Assembly: GCA_028345575.1 (NCBI GenBank)
Contig: JAOMDR010000009.1
Coordinates: 1 to 48,581 of the forward strand
Length of the DNA: 48,581 nt
From: Candidatus Nitrosopelagicus sp.
Lineage (GTDB): Archaea > Thermoproteota > Nitrososphaeria > Nitrososphaerales > Nitrosopumilaceae
Reading direction: 5' to 3'
Part shown: positions 27,725 through 37,893 of the stretch, one piece after another
Layout of the letters: each line of letters opens with the position of its first letter
How positions within the stretch are numbered: position 1 is the stretch's first letter
Made by a program: the position numbers and the translations under genes
The notes under the pieces: model-generated
What the model saw: the letters and a program-made list of their open reading frames with translations, nothing else
Database searches by the model: none
What the model was told of the DNA's origin: nothing

Positions 27725-28762
27725 TCACATTTTTGGGTCAAAACCTTTTGCAATACGTAATGCGTCTACTAGACCGTCTGCATAGCCTATGCTTAATACT
27801 GCATACTCTTTTTTTCCTTCTTTAAGAAAATTTTCTGCATCATCAATGTACAATTTTGCATTGATCAAAACATCCTCATATTCTTTAAGATTATCATAAT
27901 GCGGTCTAATTTCTTCTAGTGCTTCTCTTACCATTGGAACATATTTTTCAATCATTTGTTCTGAAATGCTCTTTATATCTGCAGAATTATCAATTGGTTC
28001 ATCAAGACATTTTGTAATGGTTTTCAGTGCATCTGATTCTGTAAAATGTAATCTTCCAGGTATAATTATGCTGTGTGGCGATTCTCCAAATTCTTTTTTA
28101 ATTAAATTTGATATGTGCCCGGAAATTATTTTTTGATTATTTTTTCCAATTCTAGATGCAACAATTGCAAAAGTTTTTTCTGAAATGACTTTACGATTCT
28201 GCGTCTTTTCAGCATCTAACAATAATGAAAATGCATCTTTTGGATCTAAGAAAAATGATTTATCTTCATTGTATTCAAGCAAAATAACTGAATGTGTTTT
28301 ACTCAATAAATTATCAAAAATTGTATTGTATGGAGTGATCATTGATTTTGGGTCATTCATGATTGTTAACACTTTTCCAACTTTGTAATAGTGTAATCCT
28401 ACTTCTCCAATTAATGATGAAACAATTGAAGCTGAATGAATTGTTTTTGTTTCTATTCCATCTCTCATTGCTCGTGTCTTTAACTCAAGATGTGTTGTAG
28501 CAATGTATGGGTCGCCATATGAAATTAATACTGTTTCTTCATTTTTTGCACTTTTTAGAATTTCATTTCCATCCTCAACTAACCATCTTTTCGCAATCTT
28601 GAATTCACCATTTGAAATATCTTCTAACTGTTTTTTTTCAGTTTCTGAAATTGGACTTGTAAATGATTCTAAATATACAATTTTTGCATTTTTTATTACA
28701 TCTAATATACTAGATGATAATTCTGAAATACCTGAAATTCCTAATCCGATAAACCACAGCAT
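27725..28762 (-). CDS. dphB: diphthine synthase fused to a DUF357 domain
   Basis: SAM-dependent methyltransferase of diphthamide synthesis on elongation factor 2. The first 260 or so residues are a complete DphB: MLWFIGLGISG, YLESFTSP, VLISYGDPYIATTH, HSASIVSSLIGEVGLHYYKVGK and GRLHFTESDAL. The last 80 or so residues form a DUF357-like helical domain (YVPMVREALEEIRPH, AENFLKEGKKEYAVLSIGYADGLVDALR). DUF357 proteins are usually separate. The total of 345 residues is clearly longer than a standard DphB. Its start touches the lysK stop. Confidence 0.92.
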   Translation of the reverse strand: MLWFIGLGISGISELSSSILDVIKNAKIVYLESFTSPISETEKKQLEDISNGEFKIAKRWLVEDGNEILKSAKNEETVLISYGDPYIATTHLELKTRAMRDGIETKTIHSASIVSSLIGEVGLHYYKVGKVLTIMNDPKSMITPYNTIFDNLLSKTHSVILLEYNEDKSFFLDPKDAFSLLLDAEKTQNRKVISEKTFAIVASRIGKNNQKIISGHISNLIKKEFGESPHSIIIPGRLHFTESDALKTITKCLDEPIDNSADIKSISEQMIEKYVPMVREALEEIRPHYDNLKEYEDVLINAKLYIDDAENFLKEGKKEYAVLSIGYADGLVDALRIAKGFDPKM

Positions 28763-29883
28763 TATTTCGTTCTGTCATGTAGTCTTTTTAAATGATGTAG
28801 TGATTTTTTTAGAATTTCTATTCCTTTGACAAATTCATCAATTGAAACTTTTTCATCAATTGTATGTGCCTCATGAGGATCTCCTGGACCGTATGTTATT
28901 ACTGGTATCTTTAACTGATTTCCTATAACATTCATGTCTCCTGTACCTGTTTTTCTAATTAACATTGGTCTTTTCTTTTCTACATCTAATACTGATAATG
29001 TTAATGCTCTTACTAATGGCGAATTATGTGCTGCCTCAAATGGTTCTGTTTCATCTATTACTGAATACAAAACTTCAATCTCTCTTTTTGTTGATATTTC
29101 ATTGACTATTCTCGTAATCTTCTCTTCAATATCATTACAATTCATGTCAACTGGTATCCTAATGTCTAATGTAGCTACACATTCTTTTGGTGTAACATTA
29201 TGGCTTGTACCTCCACGAATTTCTGTAAGGGTTGCAGTAAGCATCATTCCCTTACTTTTCTCTTCTTGACCTCCTTCTAATTCATTTTTCAATTCATTAG
29301 CAACTGATGATATTTCTTCTATTGCATTTTTTGCCAACCAGGGTGCACTTGCATGGGCGCTATCCTTCACATTCACTCTAAGATTAATTGCTAAACGACC
29401 TTTGTAGGCAATTGTAACTTTTTGAATGCTACTTGGTTCTCCAAAAACTGCATAATCTACATCAGGCTTATTTTTTACTAAATTCTTTATTCCTGTTGCA
29501 TTACCTTCTTCATCAACTGCTCCAACAAATGTTATAGTTCCTTGATTCTCTCCTATACTTGCAGCGGCAAATAACATTGCAATTAGTGGTGCTTTTGCAT
29601 CTGAGGCGCCTCTGCCATGTAACATGTTGCCTTCTATTCTTACCTTAATCTTTCCTGGAACCACATCCATGTGACCACACAACATTATTTTTGGTTCTCC
29701 TGAGCCTTTAGTTGCAATCAAGTTTCCAACTTCATCCTGATGAATATCTCTAAATCCTAAATCATCACATCTATCTGCAAGAAAATCGGCTAATGCCTTT
29801 TCACTTAATGATGGAGTATAGATTCGTAATGCTTTTTCCAAAGTTTTAATTGCATATCTGGAAGTTTCTAAATGTTCATCCAT
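28762..29883 (-). CDS. lysK: [LysW]-lysine/ornithine hydrolase
   Basis: M20-family metallohydrolase of 373 residues that releases lysine or ornithine from the LysW carrier at the end of the pathway. Metal-site motifs are CGHMDVVPG, GRGASDAKAPL and the catalytic VDEEGNATG, with a later HE pair in PHEAHTIDE. It sits immediately after the lysX-like ligase (one-base spacing). Only one such gene is present here, so it may serve both lysine and arginine branches. A peptidase or acetylornithine deacetylase label would fit the fold but not the context. Confidence 0.9.
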   Translation of the reverse strand: MDEHLETSRYAIKTLEKALRIYTPSLSEKALADFLADRCDDLGFRDIHQDEVGNLIATKGSGEPKIMLCGHMDVVPGKIKVRIEGNMLHGRGASDAKAPLIAMLFAAASIGENQGTITFVGAVDEEGNATGIKNLVKNKPDVDYAVFGEPSSIQKVTIAYKGRLAINLRVNVKDSAHASAPWLAKNAIEEISSVANELKNELEGGQEEKSKGMMLTATLTEIRGGTSHNVTPKECVATLDIRIPVDMNCNDIEEKITRIVNEISTKREIEVLYSVIDETEPFEAAHNSPLVRALTLSVLDVEKKRPMLIRKTGTGDMNVIGNQLKIPVITYGPGDPHEAHTIDEKVSIDEFVKGIEILKKSLHHLKRLHDRTK

Positions 29884-30729
29884 CTATGCTAACCCCTTAA
29901 CATGTTCTAACATTAATCCTGGAATATCTACCCCTGTAACTCTTACAACATTTCTAAATTCAGTTGTATTGTTTATTTCATGTACAACCATGCCTTTCTC
30001 ATTACTCTCCATTAAATCAATTCCAACAATATCTCCAAACACTGCATCTTTTGCTTTAATGCATATGTCTTCAAGTTCATTAGTAATCTCACATGTTTCT
30101 GCAGAGCCACCAAGATGTGTATTTGTTTTCCAATTACCATCTCCAGAATTTCTGTATATTCCAGCTGCTACATTATCTCCTATGACAATCACGCGAATAT
30201 CTCTTGGTGGACGTTGCACAAACTCCTCTAGAAAATGAATGTGATGAATTGGATACATTGCTTCTCTTCCTTCTATAATTCCTTCTGCAGCATCCATGTC
30301 ATTTAACTTGGAAACCATTCTTCCCCAACTACCTACCGTTGGTTTAATTATTTTTGGAAATCCATGTTTTTTCAATGCTTCTAGTGCAGAATCTTTTGAG
30401 AATGCAACTGTTGCATCTGGTGTTGGAACTCCTGCTTTTTGTAACAACATATGTGTAAATAATTTATTTCCCGCAAAAACACCTGTGTTTAGACAATTCA
30501 CCACTTTGGCACCTTGACCTTCAAGAGCTGCAGTAGAGTGTAAATTTCTATAATAGCTAACACATCTTTGTAATACTGGTCCATCTAAGCAATTTTTTTC
30601 ATTCAAATCCAAAAACAATTTTTTACAATCTACCATATCTATTGCGATATCATTTTTCTTTGCAGATTCAATTAGTAATTTTTCTTCAAGACGGATTGTA
30701 TCGTAAAGGATTGAAATTTTGCCGGTCAC
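29884..30729 (-). CDS. lysX: LysX-like ATP-grasp ligase (LysW-amino acid ligase, copy 1)
   Basis: RimK-type ATP-grasp enzyme that joins the amino group of alpha-aminoadipate (LysX) or glutamate (ArgX) to the carrier LysW. The 281-residue protein shows LQRCVSYYRNLH, KIIKPTVGSWGRMVSKL, RPPRDIRVIVIG and the metal-site EINNTTEF. The C-terminus contains TGVDIPG, which I recall from characterised LysX. The start is taken as GTG 30729, whose GTGA overlaps the lysW1 stop; TTG 30738 would add three residues. It lies next to homocitrate synthase, so the lysine branch is the likelier role. Confidence 0.85.
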   Translation of the reverse strand: MTGKISILYDTIRLEEKLLIESAKKNDIAIDMVDCKKLFLDLNEKNCLDGPVLQRCVSYYRNLHSTAALEGQGAKVVNCLNTGVFAGNKLFTHMLLQKAGVPTPDATVAFSKDSALEALKKHGFPKIIKPTVGSWGRMVSKLNDMDAAEGIIEGREAMYPIHHIHFLEEFVQRPPRDIRVIVIGDNVAAGIYRNSGDGNWKTNTHLGGSAETCEITNELEDICIKAKDAVFGDIVGIDLMESNEKGMVVHEINNTTEFRNVVRVTGVDIPGLMLEHVKGLA

Positions 30730-30893
30730 TGTCCCCAATCCTCTCCGACTGTTTGAGCTGGTTTTAACTCAAAACCTTCGGATGCTTTGCTAAGTTCATA
30801 ACTTGCGCCGCAATCTGGACAGGTGACAATTTCGCCTTCTACTGCATCGTCAGGGATACCTATGTTTGCATCACATTCTGGACAATTCGCCAT
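30726..30893 (-). CDS. lysW: LysW amino-group carrier protein, copy 1 (C-terminal EDWGQ)
   Basis: Small acidic zinc-ribbon carrier of 55 residues, too short for routine ORF lists. It reads MANCPECDANIGIPDD and has paired zinc motifs C4-PE-C7 and C25-PD-C28, then VGEDWGQ. In LysW proteins the final residue is normally Glu, whose gamma-carboxyl carries the substrate; here the last codon is CAG (30731-30729), Gln, followed by TGA. The ligase gene starts within the stop (GTGA). Homocitrate synthase ends six bases upstream. The sequence is otherwise a normal LysW. Confidence 0.92.
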   Translation of the reverse strand: MANCPECDANIGIPDDAVEGEIVTCPDCGASYELSKASEGFELKPAQTVGEDWGQ

Positions 30894-30899
30894 TTTTAC

Positions 30900-32081
30900 C
30901 TATTTTTCCTCTCTTTTTTCATCCTTAATTATTTTACGTTCAAGGCGATCCTCTAGTGGAATTTCCAGAACATCTCCCATTCTGAGATTTTTTAACCCAG
31001 CTGCAACATTCTTTGCAGTTTCAGGATCTTTCTCTATTCCTAATAATGACATTAGGTAACTTGCACCTGTTTTGCCTGCTAATTCCCCAAATACTATTTT
31101 TCTTCTATTTCCAACTACTCTTGGTGGAATTGGTTCATAGGCTGCTGGATTATTGAGGATTGCAGCTAAATGTGTTCCTGCTTTATGTTTGTAAGCTGAT
31201 GATCCAACAATTGGTTTTGAATCATATGGCTGAATTGTAGTGTATTGATCTATGAGTCTTGAAAGATCTGCTAACATATCTAATCTAAAATCATTTGGTG
31301 ATTTGAAGAGATATGTCAAAGCAACTGCCACTTCTGCTAATGCTGGTATGCCTGTTCTCTCTCCAATTCCATCTATCGTGGTATGAATTTGATCAACTCC
31401 TGCATCACATGCTGAAAATGCATTTGCTAATGCAAATCCAATATCGTTATGTACATGAACATCAAGTGGTGTAGATATTTCTGAACGAACTTTCTTAACA
31501 AAATTATACATTCCAATCGGCCTCATTATTCCAACTGTATCTGGTAAGCTAATTCTATCAACTCCTGCGTCTTCAATTGATTTACATAACTTTAGCAAAA
31601 ATTCTGGTTCTGCTCTACTTCCGTCTTCAACAGTGAATCTAATTTTTAATCCATGATCTTTTGCATAAGTTACTGTATCTACTGCACGTTCTAATGCTTC
31701 GTCTTGTGTAATTCGTAATTTGTCTTTTAGATGAATATCTGATATTCCAAGATATGCAGCTACCCATTTTGCATCACATGATAATGATGTATCGATGTCT
31801 TGTCTTAATGCTCTACCGTGTGAAACGATATCTGCTTTTAATCCTTGTTGGATAATTGTTTTAGTTGCTTCTTTATGATCTGGTGAAACTACTGGTGAAA
31901 TTTCTATCTGATCCACACCAAAATAATCTAACATCCATGCTATCTGAATTCTCTGTTTATTTGTAAATGAAACTCCTGGATGTTGTTCACCTTCCCGTAG
32001 AGTTGAATCTAACACTCGAATTTTTTTTGGAGTTTTTTCATATGAGTTATACATATCTGCATAGTGATTCGGATCAGTCAT
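30900..32081 (-). CDS. homocitrate synthase family protein
   Basis: Condenses acetyl-CoA with 2-oxoglutarate to homocitrate, the first step of the alpha-aminoadipate lysine pathway. The 393-residue product has the family signature LDSTLREGEQHPGVSF (DxTLREGEQ), metal ligands in DVHVHND, and GIGERTG. Isopropylmalate or citramalate synthases share the fold, but the adjacent LysW/LysX/LysK genes favour homocitrate. The C-terminal part (to LEIPLEDRLERK) is shorter than the regulatory domain of isopropylmalate synthases. A separate 115-base leader with a possible operator precedes it. Confidence 0.9.
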   Translation of the reverse strand: MTDPNHYADMYNSYEKTPKKIRVLDSTLREGEQHPGVSFTNKQRIQIAWMLDYFGVDQIEISPVVSPDHKEATKTIIQQGLKADIVSHGRALRQDIDTSLSCDAKWVAAYLGISDIHLKDKLRITQDEALERAVDTVTYAKDHGLKIRFTVEDGSRAEPEFLLKLCKSIEDAGVDRISLPDTVGIMRPIGMYNFVKKVRSEISTPLDVHVHNDIGFALANAFSACDAGVDQIHTTIDGIGERTGIPALAEVAVALTYLFKSPNDFRLDMLADLSRLIDQYTTIQPYDSKPIVGSSAYKHKAGTHLAAILNNPAAYEPIPPRVVGNRRKIVFGELAGKTGASYLMSLLGIEKDPETAKNVAAGLKNLRMGDVLEIPLEDRLERKIIKDEKREEK

Positions 32082-32196: not shown

Positions 32197-32616
32197 TTAT
32201 CTGATTGTTCTTAGAATAATTACTGTATTTGTATCAATTACGCCTGGAATTTTTCTTAATTCATCAATTGCGGCATTAATCTCAGTTATGCTTGGTGCTT
32301 TTATGATCACACTGATATCGTACTGTCCGGTAATTTCATAAACTGTTTTTACTGCATACAATTTTGTTAATCTTGATGAAACTTTTGATGTATCTGTAGT
32401 TGAGTCAACAGATATCAAAACTATTGCACTTGTAGAATTAGTCTCTCCCATTTCAATTGTAAATTTTTCAATGACTTTACTGTCTACCAAATTCTTTACT
32501 CTTCTACGAACTGCAGATTCTGAAAGCTTTAGTTTTTTCCCAATTTCTACAAATGATTCTCTAGAATCATTTCTCAAATAGTCTAAAATCTTCTCATCAA
32601 TCTTATCCTTGGACAT
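32197..32616 (-). CDS. Lrp/AsnC family transcriptional regulator (LysM-like)
   Basis: Regulator of 139 residues with an N-terminal helix-turn-helix (about 1-50, DEKILDYLRNDSRESFVEIGKK then SESAVRRRVKNLVD) and a C-terminal ligand-binding RAM domain (VKTVYEITGQYDISVIIKAP, IPGVIDTNTVIIL). LysM of Sulfolobus, an Lrp protein that controls lysine genes, lies in a comparable cluster. The start is taken as ATG 32616 (MSKDKIDEKIL); ATGs at 32634 and 32649 would extend it into lysJ. It probably controls the flanking lysine/arginine genes. Confidence 0.88.
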   Translation of the reverse strand: MSKDKIDEKILDYLRNDSRESFVEIGKKLKLSESAVRRRVKNLVDSKVIEKFTIEMGETNSTSAIVLISVDSTTDTSKVSSRLTKLYAVKTVYEITGQYDISVIIKAPSITEINAAIDELRKIPGVIDTNTVIILRTIR

Positions 32617-33784
32617 TTTTTCTCTTTTCCTCATTAGTAAATAATTCATCTAGTATTTCTAAAGATTTTGTTACGTCATCCTGTGTTATGACTAGTGGTG
32701 GAAGTAATCTTAAGATATTTCTACCAGAATATAGCAAAAGTAATCCTTTTTGAATACCTTCCATTAGTATATGTCTAACTTCAAATTTTAATTCAACTCC
32801 TATCATCAATCCTTTACCTCGAACCTCTCTGATTACTGGATGTTTTTCTTTTAATTTATCCAATCCTTCTCTAAACAATTTCCCCATATTTGCAGAATTC
32901 TCCACTAGTTTATCTTGTGTCAATGCCTGCATTGTAGCGGTTCCTGCAGCACATGATAATGGATTTCCTCCAAATGTTGATGAATGTTCTCCCTTTGAGA
33001 TACAGTCTAAAATTTCAGGTTTTACTAATGTTGCACCCATTGGCACTCCTCCTGCAATTCCTTTTGCTAAGCAAAGTATGTCTGGTGCGGTATCCCAGTG
33101 TTGATGGGCCCACATCTTTCCGGTGCGTCCTAGTCCTGCTTGTATTTCATCATAAATTAATAGAATATTCTTTTCATCACATAATTTTCTGACATCCTGT
33201 AAAAATCCATCAGGTGCCACATGAATGCCGCTTTCTCCTTGAATAGGTTCTAAAATTACAAATGCTGTTTGATCATTAACTGTTTCACGAAGCTTTTCAA
33301 TATCGCCAAAAGGTGAAAATGATACTTTTTCCACAAGTGGTTTGAATGCCTTTCTGTATTTTGGATTAAATGTTATTGAAAGTGCACCTAGTGTTTTTCC
33401 ATGGTATGAACCATTCATTGCAACCATCTCGGTTTTTCCTGTAAACTTACGTGCAAATTTCATTCCCGCCTCAATTGCTTCTGCACCACTATTATTCAGA
33501 TGAACCTGCGACAAATTTTTTGGGGCAACTTTGAAAAGATTTTCCAAAAACTCTTCACGAGTTTTACTGTAAAGTGAACTGTGAACTGTAATAATTTTCT
33601 CAAGTTGTGCTTTCAATGCATTGGTAACTCTTTCATTTTGGTGTCCAAGTAATGCAACTCCGTATCCTCCCATACAATCGATGTATTCCTTACCCTCGGT
33701 ATCCCAAACATGTGCACCTAAGCCCTTCTCTATTGTTACTGGAAATCTTTGATAAAGATTACCAAGAAATTTATCCTCACTCAT
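32603..33784 (-). CDS. lysJ: [LysW]-aminoadipate semialdehyde/glutamate semialdehyde transaminase
   Basis: PLP-dependent class III aminotransferase of 393 residues acting on carrier-bound semialdehydes in lysine and arginine synthesis. It has NSGAEAIEAGMKFAR, GSYHGKTLGAL, LIYDEIQAGLGRTGK and the PLP lysine in LCLAKGIAGGVPMGA, as in the acetylornithine aminotransferase group. It overlaps lysZ by four bases and the regulator gene by 14 bases. Only one copy is present in the window, which fits a shared enzyme for both carrier branches. Confidence 0.92.
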   Translation of the reverse strand: MSEDKFLGNLYQRFPVTIEKGLGAHVWDTEGKEYIDCMGGYGVALLGHQNERVTNALKAQLEKIITVHSSLYSKTREEFLENLFKVAPKNLSQVHLNNSGAEAIEAGMKFARKFTGKTEMVAMNGSYHGKTLGALSITFNPKYRKAFKPLVEKVSFSPFGDIEKLRETVNDQTAFVILEPIQGESGIHVAPDGFLQDVRKLCDEKNILLIYDEIQAGLGRTGKMWAHQHWDTAPDILCLAKGIAGGVPMGATLVKPEILDCISKGEHSSTFGGNPLSCAAGTATMQALTQDKLVENSANMGKLFREGLDKLKEKHPVIREVRGKGLMIGVELKFEVRHILMEGIQKGLLLLYSGRNILRLLPPLVITQDDVTKSLEILDELFTNEEKRKNVQG

Positions 33785-34581
33785 TTAGTTATCACCGTAC
33801 AATTGTTATGTTCTATCGCAGATGAAATTGGATTTTCTTTTTGACCATTTGCAATCAATGCTTCTTTAACTCCCATTTCAAGTGCTTCTGTTGCAGCAAG
33901 AATTTTTTTCTCCATACCGAATCCAATTTTTGGCATTATTTCTTTTGCCTCTTCTAATGATAATTTTTCAACCAATTTGTCTTCCATGAGCAATCCGTCT
34001 ACATTTGTAATAAATAACACCTTATCTGCCTTGACATATCCTGCTACATTAGCCGCTGCCCTGTCTCCGTCAACATTTAGAAATTCAGACTCTTCACTTA
34101 TTGCAATTGGGGAAATTACCGGAGTATATCCTTTATCCATGATAGTTTTGATTAAATCTGAATTTACATTTGAAATTTTACCTGTATATCCGCCATCAAT
34201 TACTTGTTTTCTTCCTTTTTCATTCATAATCATTAATTTCTTTTTTCTATTAGCCTCAATTGTTTTCCCATCCATACCTGACAATCCAATTGCATTAATT
34301 CCATTTTTTTGCAACATTTGAACAATTGTTTTACCTATTCTTCCTGACATTACCATTGTAAAAATTTCAGAAGTTTCTTTGTCTGTATATCGACTCTTTA
34401 TCCCACTAGGTGATACAACAAATTTAGGTTCTTTACCTAATTGTTCTGTAACCTTTGTCACTTCTTTACCGCCGCCGTGAACTAGTATGACACCTTCTTG
34501 CTCTACAACTTTTTTAATATCGTCTATTGTTGATGGATGTAAATTATCTACTACACTCCCACCAATTTTTATCGTAATCAT
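33781..34581 (-). CDS. lysZ: [LysW]-aminoadipate/glutamate 6-kinase
   Basis: Amino acid kinase family member of 266 residues, related to acetylglutamate kinase, phosphorylating the side-chain carboxyl of carrier-bound substrate. Motifs: IKIGGSVVD at the N-terminus, ILVHGGGKEVT, and the nucleotide site KVLFITNVDGLL. It lies between lysY and lysJ with a three-base gap and a four-base overlap. Context separates it from a stand-alone arginine-pathway acetylglutamate kinase. Confidence 0.91.
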   Translation of the reverse strand: MITIKIGGSVVDNLHPSTIDDIKKVVEQEGVILVHGGGKEVTKVTEQLGKEPKFVVSPSGIKSRYTDKETSEIFTMVMSGRIGKTIVQMLQKNGINAIGLSGMDGKTIEANRKKKLMIMNEKGRKQVIDGGYTGKISNVNSDLIKTIMDKGYTPVISPIAISEESEFLNVDGDRAAANVAGYVKADKVLFITNVDGLLMEDKLVEKLSLEEAKEIMPKIGFGMEKKILAATEALEMGVKEALIANGQKENPISSAIEHNNCTVITK

Positions 34582-34584
34582 CTA

Positions 34585-35631
34585 TTATACTGGTGTTAGT
34601 GGGGAATACATAATTCCTTCGAACTCGTCAAATCCTGCCATGACGTTCATGTTTTGAATTGCAGAACCTGCTGCACCTTTCATTAGATTATCTGATGCCG
34701 ATAGAGCAATCAATCTGTTGTTATCTCTGTCTAGATCAAATCCAATATCACAGAAATTTGAACCGACCAAGAATTTTGGGTCTGGGAATTTGTGTAGACC
34801 GTCTTTATCTCTAATTAATCTGACAAATCGTTCATCACTGTATTCTGCACGGTATATTTTCCAAAGTTCTTTTTCATCAACATCTTTCTTTAGGAATGTA
34901 TGGTTTGTACATAAAATTCCCCTAACCACATCTACTGCGTGTGGACTCATTGATACTTTGATTTTTCTACCTGCTGTTTGACTTAATTCTTGTTCAATTT
35001 CTCCTGTATGTCTATGCTTTGCTGGTTTGTATGGTCTGATAACTCCTGCACGCATTGCATGTGCTGTTCCTGCACCTGCACCTGCACCTGAAGAACCAAT
35101 TTTTGAATCAACAACAATATGATCCTCATCAATTAAATTATTTTTAATTAATGGATTTAATGCAAGCATTGAAGTTACTGCCATACATCCCGGACAAGAA
35201 ACCAATTGTGATTTTTTAATTTCTTCTCTATGTAATTCTGGTACTCCAAATACAGATTTTTCTAAATAATCTGGATGTGGGTGTTCCCATCCGTACCATT
35301 TTCCGTAATCCTCTGGATTATGCAAACGATAGTCTGCACTCAAATCAATAATCTTCATTCCTCTATCATACAATGCCTTTACAATCTCAGTTGCGGTTCC
35401 ATGTGGAACTGCAGTAAAAACCACATCACAATTATCACTCATTTTCTCATAATCGAGTTCTGAAAATTTTAAATCAGTAAAACCTCTTAGGCTAGGCTGA
35501 GCTTTATGGAGAAATTTCCCTACATGTTGTCTAGAGGTTACCATCGAAACTTCAACTTTAGGATGACTGAGAAGTAATCTAAGAACTTCTCCTCCTACAT
35601 ATCCTGAGGCTCCTACAATTCCTACTTTCAT
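34585..35631 (-). CDS. lysY: [LysW]-aminoadipate/glutamyl phosphate reductase
   Basis: NADP-dependent semialdehyde dehydrogenase of the ArgC type, 348 residues. It has the nucleotide-binding GIVGASGYVGGEVLRLL, the catalytic Cys in VSCPGCMAVTSMLAL, and SSGAGAGAG. It follows the ligase gene after a gap of about 40 bases and precedes lysZ. It acts between LysZ and LysJ on carrier-bound intermediates and, being single-copy here, probably serves both pathways. Confidence 0.91.
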   Translation of the reverse strand: MKVGIVGASGYVGGEVLRLLLSHPKVEVSMVTSRQHVGKFLHKAQPSLRGFTDLKFSELDYEKMSDNCDVVFTAVPHGTATEIVKALYDRGMKIIDLSADYRLHNPEDYGKWYGWEHPHPDYLEKSVFGVPELHREEIKKSQLVSCPGCMAVTSMLALNPLIKNNLIDEDHIVVDSKIGSSGAGAGAGTAHAMRAGVIRPYKPAKHRHTGEIEQELSQTAGRKIKVSMSPHAVDVVRGILCTNHTFLKKDVDEKELWKIYRAEYSDERFVRLIRDKDGLHKFPDPKFLVGSNFCDIGFDLDRDNNRLIALSASDNLMKGAAGSAIQNMNVMAGFDEFEGIMYSPLTPV

Positions 35632-35674: not shown

Positions 35675-36529
35675 TCACTTGATATTATGAATTGCATAGT
35701 CGATCATCTCTTTTGGAATGTTTTTCTTTGAGACTTTTACCAATCCTTTAAACTCCACAGTATTATTTACCTCGTGTACAACTAGTCCTTTTTCTTTGTC
35801 TTCCATCAAGTCAATTCCTAAAATTCCGCCACCCACTGCTTTCGATGTTTTTTCACATAAATCTTCCATCTCTTTTGTAATTTCACAAAGTTCTGGGTCT
35901 GCACCTAGTGCGATGTTTGTTTTGAAACCTCCAGATGATTTTCTATACATTGCTGATATAGCTTGGTCTCCTACAGTAATTACACGAATATCTCTTGGTG
36001 GACGATCAATCATTTCTTGTAAATAATAAATTCTGTCCTGAGGTCCATCTGTTACCTGTCTATTTTCAATTACAGCTTCTGCTGTATCTTTATCTTTTAC
36101 TGGCATGACACTTCTTCCCCAACTACCAATTATTGGTTTTATAACTAATGGATATCCAACTTTTTCAAAATTATCTAATGCGGTTTCAGCTGAAAAAGAA
36201 AAGTAAGTCTTTGGAGTTGGAATGTTATTTTTCTTTAACAACATTGATGTTATCATTTTATTTCCACAAGTATTTGCAACATCAAATTTGTTAATCACTG
36301 GTATGTCCATAAATTCTAAACATGCTGTGAAATGCAACCCCCGGTAATAACTAACACAACGTTCTAACACAACATCACCAAATTCAAAATTTTCAGGTTT
36401 ACTGTCTGTATCAAAACTAGTAATTTTTGCATCAACCATGGAAGTTTCATAACCTAGTTGCTCTGCATTTTTTTGCAGTAGTTTTTCCTCAGTTCTCAAC
36501 CTATCAAATACTATGCAAATTTTCTGCAA
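35675..36529 (-). CDS. argX: ArgX/LysX-like ATP-grasp ligase (copy 2)
   Basis: Second RimK-type LysW ligase, 284 residues, with the same motif series as copy 1: LERCVSYYRGLH, VIKPIIGSWGRSV, RPPRDIRVITVG and EVNNTVEF. Its C-terminus reads VSKKNIPKEM where copy 1 has TGVDIPG, so the two have diverged around the substrate end. Its start is TTG 36529, directly after the lysW2 stop, and argG lies just upstream, so the glutamate-specific (ArgX) role for arginine synthesis is more likely. The assignment between the two copies is inference. Confidence 0.85.
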   Translation of the reverse strand: MQKICIVFDRLRTEEKLLQKNAEQLGYETSMVDAKITSFDTDSKPENFEFGDVVLERCVSYYRGLHFTACLEFMDIPVINKFDVANTCGNKMITSMLLKKNNIPTPKTYFSFSAETALDNFEKVGYPLVIKPIIGSWGRSVMPVKDKDTAEAVIENRQVTDGPQDRIYYLQEMIDRPPRDIRVITVGDQAISAMYRKSSGGFKTNIALGADPELCEITKEMEDLCEKTSKAVGGGILGIDLMEDKEKGLVVHEVNNTVEFKGLVKVSKKNIPKEMIDYAIHNIK

Positions 36530-36697
36530 TTACTCTCCCCAGTCTTCGCCAACGGTTTCTGCTTCTTTTAATTCAATATTGGAACCTTCTTTCTTTGAGA
36601 TTTCATAGTCTGCACCACAATCTCCACAAGAAACAATTTCACCTACAGCGGCATCTTCTGGGATATTCATATTTGCGTCACATTCTGGACAATTCAT
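36530..36697 (-). CDS. lysW: LysW amino-group carrier protein, copy 2 (C-terminal EDWGE)
   Basis: A 55-residue acidic zinc-ribbon carrier: MNCPECDANMNIPEDA, zinc motifs C3-PE-C6 and C24-GD-C27, and the canonical terminal VGEDWGE whose last Glu accepts the substrate. It is about half identical to copy 1, with the main functional difference at the final residue. It lies between argG (20 bases upstream) and the second ligase gene (directly downstream). Confidence 0.94.
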   Translation of the reverse strand: MNCPECDANMNIPEDAAVGEIVSCGDCGADYEISKKEGSNIELKEAETVGEDWGE

Positions 36698-36717: not shown

Positions 36718-37893
36718 CTAGAATTTATTAGCTTCTGTTGACTGCATTCCCCATAATTCGACAAATCCTTTTGCCAATTTCTGATCAAATGTGGAATCTT
36801 TTCCATAAGTGGCTATGTCGTGACTGTAAAGTGAATATTTTGACTCTCTACCGACTACTCTGACATTTCCTTTGTGAAGTTTTAATCTTACAGTTCCAGT
36901 TACACGTTTTTGAGCTTGTTCAATGAATTCATCCAATTCTTTTCTTAATGGATCATCCCATAATCCTGAATAAACTAACCATGCCCATTCATCATCCACT
37001 AATGTCTTAAATTTAGTTTCATGTTTTGTGTGTACCATTTTTTCAAGATCTGAGTGTGCTTCAATTAAACAAATTGCCGCTGGTGTCTCATACACTTCAC
37101 GTGATTTTATTCCAACCACTCTGTCTTCAATATGATCAACTATTCCAACACCATGTGAACCTGCTTTTTTATTCATATATTCTATCAATTTCACTGGAGG
37201 CATTTTTTTACCATCTACTTCCACTGGTATTCCTTTATTGAATTTGATTTTCAAATATGTAGGTTTTTCAGGTAAATTCTTTGTCTTAATCCAAATGAAT
37301 GCATCATCTGGTGGTTCATTGAATGGATTCTCTAAAACTCCCCCTTCAATTGCCCTTCCCCATAAATTTTGATCAATACTGAATTTTTTTGCAACACTAT
37401 CTATCTCAATCCCATGTTTATTTGCAAATTTTAATTCTGTCTCACGGTCTAAGTTCATATCACGAATTGGCGCAATGATTGGAAGATTAGAACCTGCCCT
37501 TAACGTATTATCGAAACGTACTTGATCATTTCCTTTTCCTGAACATCCATGTGCTAATGATGAAACTTTTTCTTTTTTTGCAATTTCAAGTACTTTGTGT
37601 GCAATTAATGGTCTTGCTAGTGCAGTTGCAAGACAATATTTCTTTTGATATAATGCATTAGCTTTGATTGCTGGAAAAATATAATCTGTAACAAACTCTT
37701 TTTTTGCATCTATGTTGTAATGTTTTTTAACTCCAAGTTTTTTTGCTTTTTTTGCAATTTTTGTACTATCATCTCCTTGACCCACATCCACTGTTACTGT
37801 AATTACATCCATGTCATGCATATCTTGCATATACTTTACAACTACTGATGTATCCAATCCTCCTGAAAATGCAAGTATTGATTTTTGTTTCAT
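36718..37893 (-). CDS. argG: argininosuccinate synthase
   Basis: Joins citrulline and aspartate with ATP in arginine synthesis. The 391-residue enzyme has the PP-loop AFSGGLDTSVV at its N-terminus, ALARPLIAHK, HGCSGKGNDQVRFD, and SREVYETPAA. It is the first gene of the minus-strand run that continues into lysW2 and the second ligase. argH is not in the window. The upstream region (37894-38025) is shared with the divergent ABC importer. Confidence 0.96.
   Translation of the reverse strand: MKQKSILAFSGGLDTSVVVKYMQDMHDMDVITVTVDVGQGDDSTKIAKKAKKLGVKKHYNIDAKKEFVTDYIFPAIKANALYQKKYCLATALARPLIAHKVLEIAKKEKVSSLAHGCSGKGNDQVRFDNTLRAGSNLPIIAPIRDMNLDRETELKFANKHGIEIDSVAKKFSIDQNLWGRAIEGGVLENPFNEPPDDAFIWIKTKNLPEKPTYLKIKFNKGIPVEVDGKKMPPVKLIEYMNKKAGSHGVGIVDHIEDRVVGIKSREVYETPAAICLIEAHSDLEKMVHTKHETKFKTLVDDEWAWLVYSGLWDDPLRKELDEFIEQAQKRVTGTVRLKLHKGNVRVVGRESKYSLYSHDIATYGKDSTFDQKLAKGFVELWGMQSTEANKF

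Follow-up and report, generated by a model that had tools for sequence, protein, structure and literature searches.

In the LysW systems of Thermus, Sulfolobus and Thermococcus, cargo is joined to the γ-carboxyl of the last glutamate of the carrier protein, and replacement of the terminal glutamate by alanine abolishes arginine synthesis in the haloarchaeon Natrinema gari (PMC10433800). One of the two LysW copies in the window (the whole 48,581-nt stretch of DNA analysed here) ends in glutamine. How does such a protein carry its cargo, given that a glutamine amide cannot be activated like a glutamate carboxylate?

The glutamine-ending carrier and its gene cluster

A combined lysine/arginine cluster lies on the minus strand of the window, in the order ArgG-like ORF, LysW (Glu), ArgX, LysY, LysZ, LysJ, LysM-type regulator, homocitrate-synthase-family gene, LysW (Gln), LysX and LysK. 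Its features are as follows.

36718–37893, minus strand: ArgG-like ORF, a putative argininosuccinate synthase (identity by reading; ORF and conserved synteny beside the cluster)
36530–36697, minus strand: arginine-side LysW carrier protein with EDWGE ending (NF041070, 87.7 bits)
35675–36529, minus strand: ArgX-type ligase (TIGR02144, 305.2 bits; Gly-Phe before KTN, as in SaArgX)
34585–35631, minus strand: LysY/ArgC-type reductase common to both pathways (TIGR01850, above its cut-off)
33781–34581, minus strand: LysZ-type kinase common to both pathways (NF010662, [LysW]-aminoadipate/[LysW]-glutamate kinase, above its cut-off)
32603–33784, minus strand: LysJ/ArgD-type aminotransferase common to both pathways (TIGR00707, above its cut-off)
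32197–32649, minus strand: LysM-type regulator (NF040947, 180.8 bits; cut-off 180)
30900–32081, minus strand: homocitrate-synthase-family gene upstream of lysW (HMGL-like and HCS_D2 domains; below equivalog cut-offs)
30726–30893, minus strand: lysine-side LysW carrier protein with EDWGQ ending (NCBIfam NF041070, 91.6 bits; cut-off 75)
30729–30731, minus strand: CAG codon for the terminal glutamine, followed by TGA at 30726–30728 (sequence read)
29884–30729, minus strand: LysX-type ATP-grasp ligase with GTG start and a 4-base overlap with the lysW stop (TIGR02144, 309.5 bits, above cut-off; conserved residues kept)
28762–29883, minus strand: LysK-type M20 hydrolase, the candidate deamidase (PDB 5xoy, [LysW]-lysine hydrolase, E 2.9e-49; TIGR01902, above its cut-off; one close copy per genome)

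The lysine-side LysW is translated as MANCPECDANIGIPDDAVEGEIVTCPDCGASYELSKASEGFELKPAQTVGEDWGQ, with the zinc cysteines C4, C7, C25 and C28 and the EDWG motif all present, and it exceeds the cut-offs of both the archaeal LysW profile NF041070 and PF21344. It is like the known LysW/ArgW proteins of Thermus, Sulfolobus, Thermococcus and haloarchaea in zinc-ribbon fold family, cysteines, acidic linker, EDWG ending and gene neighbours, but differs in the last residue, which is glutamate in the known systems and is encoded as glutamine here. The arginine-side copy ends ...AETVGEDWGE. The GTG start codon of lysX occupies 30727–30729, producing a GTGA overlap with lysW at 30726–30729. All of this agrees with the first-pass annotation, which had the coordinates of both minus-strand LysW copies right and had described the two endings, the CAG codon followed by TGA, the intact cysteines and DWG motif, and the GTGA overlap. 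By its encoded sequence the lysine-side protein is thus best regarded as a LysW variant, in which deamidation could restore the cargo-accepting glutamate.

Over the lysW stop, the lysX start stays GTG: the tabulated lysine-side loci contain CAGTGA junctions in 62 cases and never CAATGA, by which the start would become ATG. On the other side of LysK, in most related loci as in the window (27725–28762), lies a tetrapyrrole-methylase-type protein with a DUF357 domain, which from our reading is presumably diphthine-synthase-like.

The window LysX keeps the conserved ATP-grasp residues, with GSWGR at 133–137. It has Asn-Trp where ArgX has Gly-Phe, the pair reported for SaArgX; from this difference, read against the SaLysX/SaArgX comparison (PMC10433800), and from the homocitrate-synthase-family neighbour, we infer that the window LysX uses aminoadipate.

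The window genome is a draft, 86% complete, and an assembly or sequencing error, or recoding of the stop codon, would be conceivable for a single such genome. The same residue, however, is encoded across hundreds of genomes, where the next codon is TGA, TAA or TAG; this recurrence and the use of all three stop codons rule out a misread GAG or recoding, and leave error of any such kind a vanishingly small probability.

Glutamine and glutamate at the carrier end

Comparison with relatives excluded the possibility, raised in the first-pass annotation, that they all end in glutamate. In a sample of 400 genomes of the class, the pattern EDWG[EQ]-stop matched in 367 and its glutamine form alone in 263; many of the genomes searched are drafts. 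Counted by hand from the table, the glutamine form occurs in about 196 of 221 Nitrosopumilaceae genomes (family f1, identified by contig matches to named records of Nitrosopelagicus and Nitrosopumilus), 61 of 62 genomes of family f3, 6 of 7 of family f2 and none of about 110 elsewhere in the class; f2 and f3 are probably Nitrosocaldaceae and Nitrososphaeraceae. The orthologous gene carries the same glutamine codon in the named Nitrosopelagicus and Nitrosopumilus records, and also in single-contig genomes. Across the 62 lysine-side loci with a CAGTGA junction, the glycine codon before the glutamine uses all four third bases, and sequence drift has therefore had time to act. Retention of glutamine in nearly all Nitrosopumilaceae relatives despite this drift points to selection for it in that family, glutamate being tolerated in a few members.

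The two residues have nevertheless replaced each other repeatedly. Every combination on lysine- and arginine-side carriers was met in the 40 regions read: lysine-side Gln with arginine-side Glu in most of f1 and in genus g23 of f2, Glu on both in six genomes (G143, G275, G307, G220, G206 and G256), lysine-side Glu with arginine-side Gln in three that group together in f3 (G208, G222 and G370), Gln on both in five (G190, G205, G218, G311 and G295), and one carrier only, ending in Gln, in genus g24 of f3. A tree of the concatenated pathway requires at least five changes on the lysine side and at least two on the arginine side. In a tree of 122 ligases, the last residue of the partner carrier changes at least 13 times, in some cases within a genus. 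Two species of one genus form a natural pair (G525, Gln; G490, Glu). Beyond the class, glutamine-ending LysW lies beside a LysX/ArgX-type ligase in four Thermoproteota families (f32, f37, f55 and f58), and genera g117 and g133 there also contain glutamate-ending relatives.

The expectation that glutamine would be conserved with the first ligase was thus borne out only in part: in Nitrosopumilaceae it accompanies the lysine-side ligase, but in some relatives it is found on the arginine-side carrier or on both carriers. A role for glutamine as a label by which the lysine ligase is told from the arginine ligase was rejected on the same distribution and on the single shared carriers. The residue eight before the LysW end tracks pathway identity better: regardless of the last residue, it is mostly AQ in carriers for lysine and AE in those for arginine. 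A simple tie to ammonia oxidation was also rejected. While amoA is present in all tested members of f1, f2 and f3 except the draft window genome, it is also present in glutamate-only genomes (G206, G220, G143, G275 and G307), and glutamine carriers occur outside the class. Two pattern matches, the second match of G189 and that of G435, were dropped, there being no LysW at either. In genus g16 (L116 and L118), a second, glutamine-ending LysW stands apart from the ligases, and ArgX is matched on a different contig.

A glutamine protein that is never loaded, serving as a decoy, store or regulator, was offered in the first-pass annotation, and the window genome does have a second LysW ending in glutamate. 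Genomes with glutamine on both carriers speak against this reading, as do those in which the glutamine form is the sole carrier. In genus g24, seven genomes, three of them single-contig (G189, G195 and G199), have a single LysW, glutamine-ending and beside LysX, and they also have an ArgX that adjoins ArgG, and all of the shared enzymes; a second search of G195 and G199 with a g24 LysW as query again recovered one copy. Outside the class, single-contig G422 likewise has only one LysW, ending in glutamine. Because some genomes that retain LysX, ArgX and the shared enzymes have no other carrier, the glutamine LysW is almost certainly a working carrier, unless both amino acids are imported. The decoy, storage or regulator proposal is accordingly not borne out and seems to us highly improbable, and the sole-carrier genomes imply that cargo is bound covalently to glutamine-encoded LysW in the cell.

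Reduced gene sets of other kinds were also seen. Three genomes of genus g41 (G261, G319 and G284; L142) have one LysW (Gln) and only one LysX/ArgX-type ligase; in G261, ArgG adjoins LysY with no ArgX between, and one ligase may serve both pathways. In single-contig G023 (L114), the only LysW found is of the arginine type (Glu), and the carrier proper to LysX seems to be lost.

Routes for cargo attachment

Ligases that serve glutamine carriers have the same active-site residues as those that serve glutamate carriers. Sequence comparison found no position that separates glutamine- from glutamate-partnered ligases among LysX proteins, and none that separates the two systems in LysK, LysZ, LysY or LysJ. 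Within genus g133, ligases with glutamine and glutamate partners are identical at all 32 conserved positions checked. Differences in the ArgX of f3 were considered as a sign of ligase co-adaptation and rejected as lineage marks, as they are also found in the ArgX of G193, which serves a glutamate carrier. Because no ligase position follows the Glu/Gln changes, the ligase seems always to meet glutamate, and deamidation of the glutamine carrier would therefore be required. Glutamate and glutamine replacing each other with no visible change in the ligase fits deamidation better than a new linkage. Of the undescribed carrier chemistry proposed in the first-pass annotation, the chemical question stands as a real one, whereas new chemistry is not established.

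On the reading we favour, at about even confidence, the glutamine LysW is deamidated to the glutamate form and then loaded canonically, with LysK as the likeliest deamidase. The glutamine-ending LysW would be made as a precursor, serving lysine synthesis and in some relatives arginine synthesis too, and its terminal glutamine would be converted to glutamate by deamidation. As in the LysW systems already known, LysX with ATP would then activate the new γ-carboxyl and couple aminoadipate to it through the amino group; the cycle would be finished by LysZ, LysY, LysJ and LysK. The carrier would end in glutamate once lysine is released, so that each carrier molecule would need one deamidation. Since free glutamate would require no maturation step, the strong retention of glutamine in Nitrosopumilaceae calls for an explanation, which counts against deamidation.

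LysK would be the most economical deamidase, as lysine release and removal of ammonia from LysW-Gln would both cleave an amide bond by hydrolysis at one and the same carbon of the side chain. We propose it because LysK already performs the equivalent cleavage in the LysW cycle, as Dop does with Pup. That LysK itself carries out the step, rather than another amidase, is a tentative assignment that we hold somewhat below even. LysK is found wherever the pathway is, as a single close copy in each AOA genome tested, and its presence does not discriminate a deamidase role. Substrate recognition by M20 hydrolases normally involves the carboxylate of the amino acid to be released, and ammonia has none, which counts against LysK.

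The Pup/Dop system of actinobacteria offers a parallel. Pup ends in glutamine in mycobacteria and in glutamate in others, and Dop both deamidates the glutamine and cuts the isopeptide (PMC8223512). LysW carriers likewise end in glutamine in some members and in glutamate in others; like the glutamine LysW, Pup is a small protein, and its terminal glutamine becomes the acceptor after deamidation, but the one enzyme that combines deamidation with release is Dop, whereas a deamidase for LysW is hypothetical. Pup tags proteins for degradation and is unrelated to LysW in sequence, and the Pup ligase and Dop are glutamine-synthetase-like. The likeness is one of analogy only and does not make LysW a member of the Pup family.

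The same pattern would be explained if lineages with glutamine carriers maintained a dedicated amidase with no relation to LysK, and mycobacterial Pup does have a dedicated enzyme. In the genomes checked, neither an additional ligase nor a LysK paralogue was found to fill the part, and the ORFs and domains of the window include no such amidase beside the cluster. The repeated origin of glutamine, even within genera, also suits a generally present activity, and we consider a dedicated enzyme quite unlikely.

Alternatively, LysX and ArgX might load the glutamine carrier directly, by its α-carboxyl or by amide exchange. Lysine synthesis would then differ from that of the studied LysW systems in its bond or its reaction, with one set of downstream enzymes still processing a glutamate carrier for arginine. 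Taken together we regard direct loading as unlikely, though with an appreciable chance. In the α-carboxyl form, which by itself we judge unlikely, the ligase would activate the main-chain carboxyl of the last residue and make an ordinary peptide bond to the cargo, whether the side chain is glutamine or glutamate. The two residues would then be interchangeable with the ligase unchanged, as observed, and other members of the RimK-type superfamily to which LysX and ArgX belong are called α-L-glutamate ligases. They are named for α links, however, whereas known LysX and ArgX make a γ link to LysW, as in Thermus, Sulfolobus and Thermococcus (PMC10433800), and the window ligase has the same conserved residues and GSWGR. 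The shared enzymes would also have to take two geometries in cells with one glutamine and one glutamate carrier, and a free side chain should allow further residues, yet all 180 tabulated carriers, near-identical copies included, end in glutamate or glutamine. Because only these two occur, a Glu-like side chain appears to matter.

In the exchange form, the amino group of aminoadipate would displace the glutamine amide and expel ammonia, no glutamate being formed first. Such a reaction would use glutamine itself, in keeping with its retention in most Nitrosopumilaceae, and would yield the normal γ link. Against it, the ligase retains its ATP-grasp residues, and LysK would leave glutamate after one cycle, so that loading by the ATP route would be needed anyway; we consider exchange improbable.

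Significance for LysW biology

No earlier description of a glutamine-ending LysW or of its deamidation was found in the open-licence papers searched. The terminal glutamate is considered the chemical core of the LysW system; in a very abundant archaeal group, most of the genomes sampled encode glutamine in its place. Natural Glu/Gln pairs such as G525 and G490 are numerous, and with them the question of carrier chemistry can be tested directly. If the glutamine carrier were loaded directly, lysine would be built on another bond, or by another reaction, than in the LysW systems studied. A metabolic carrier is either matured in these cells by deamidation, a step for which those papers hold no description, or loaded with its cargo in a new way.
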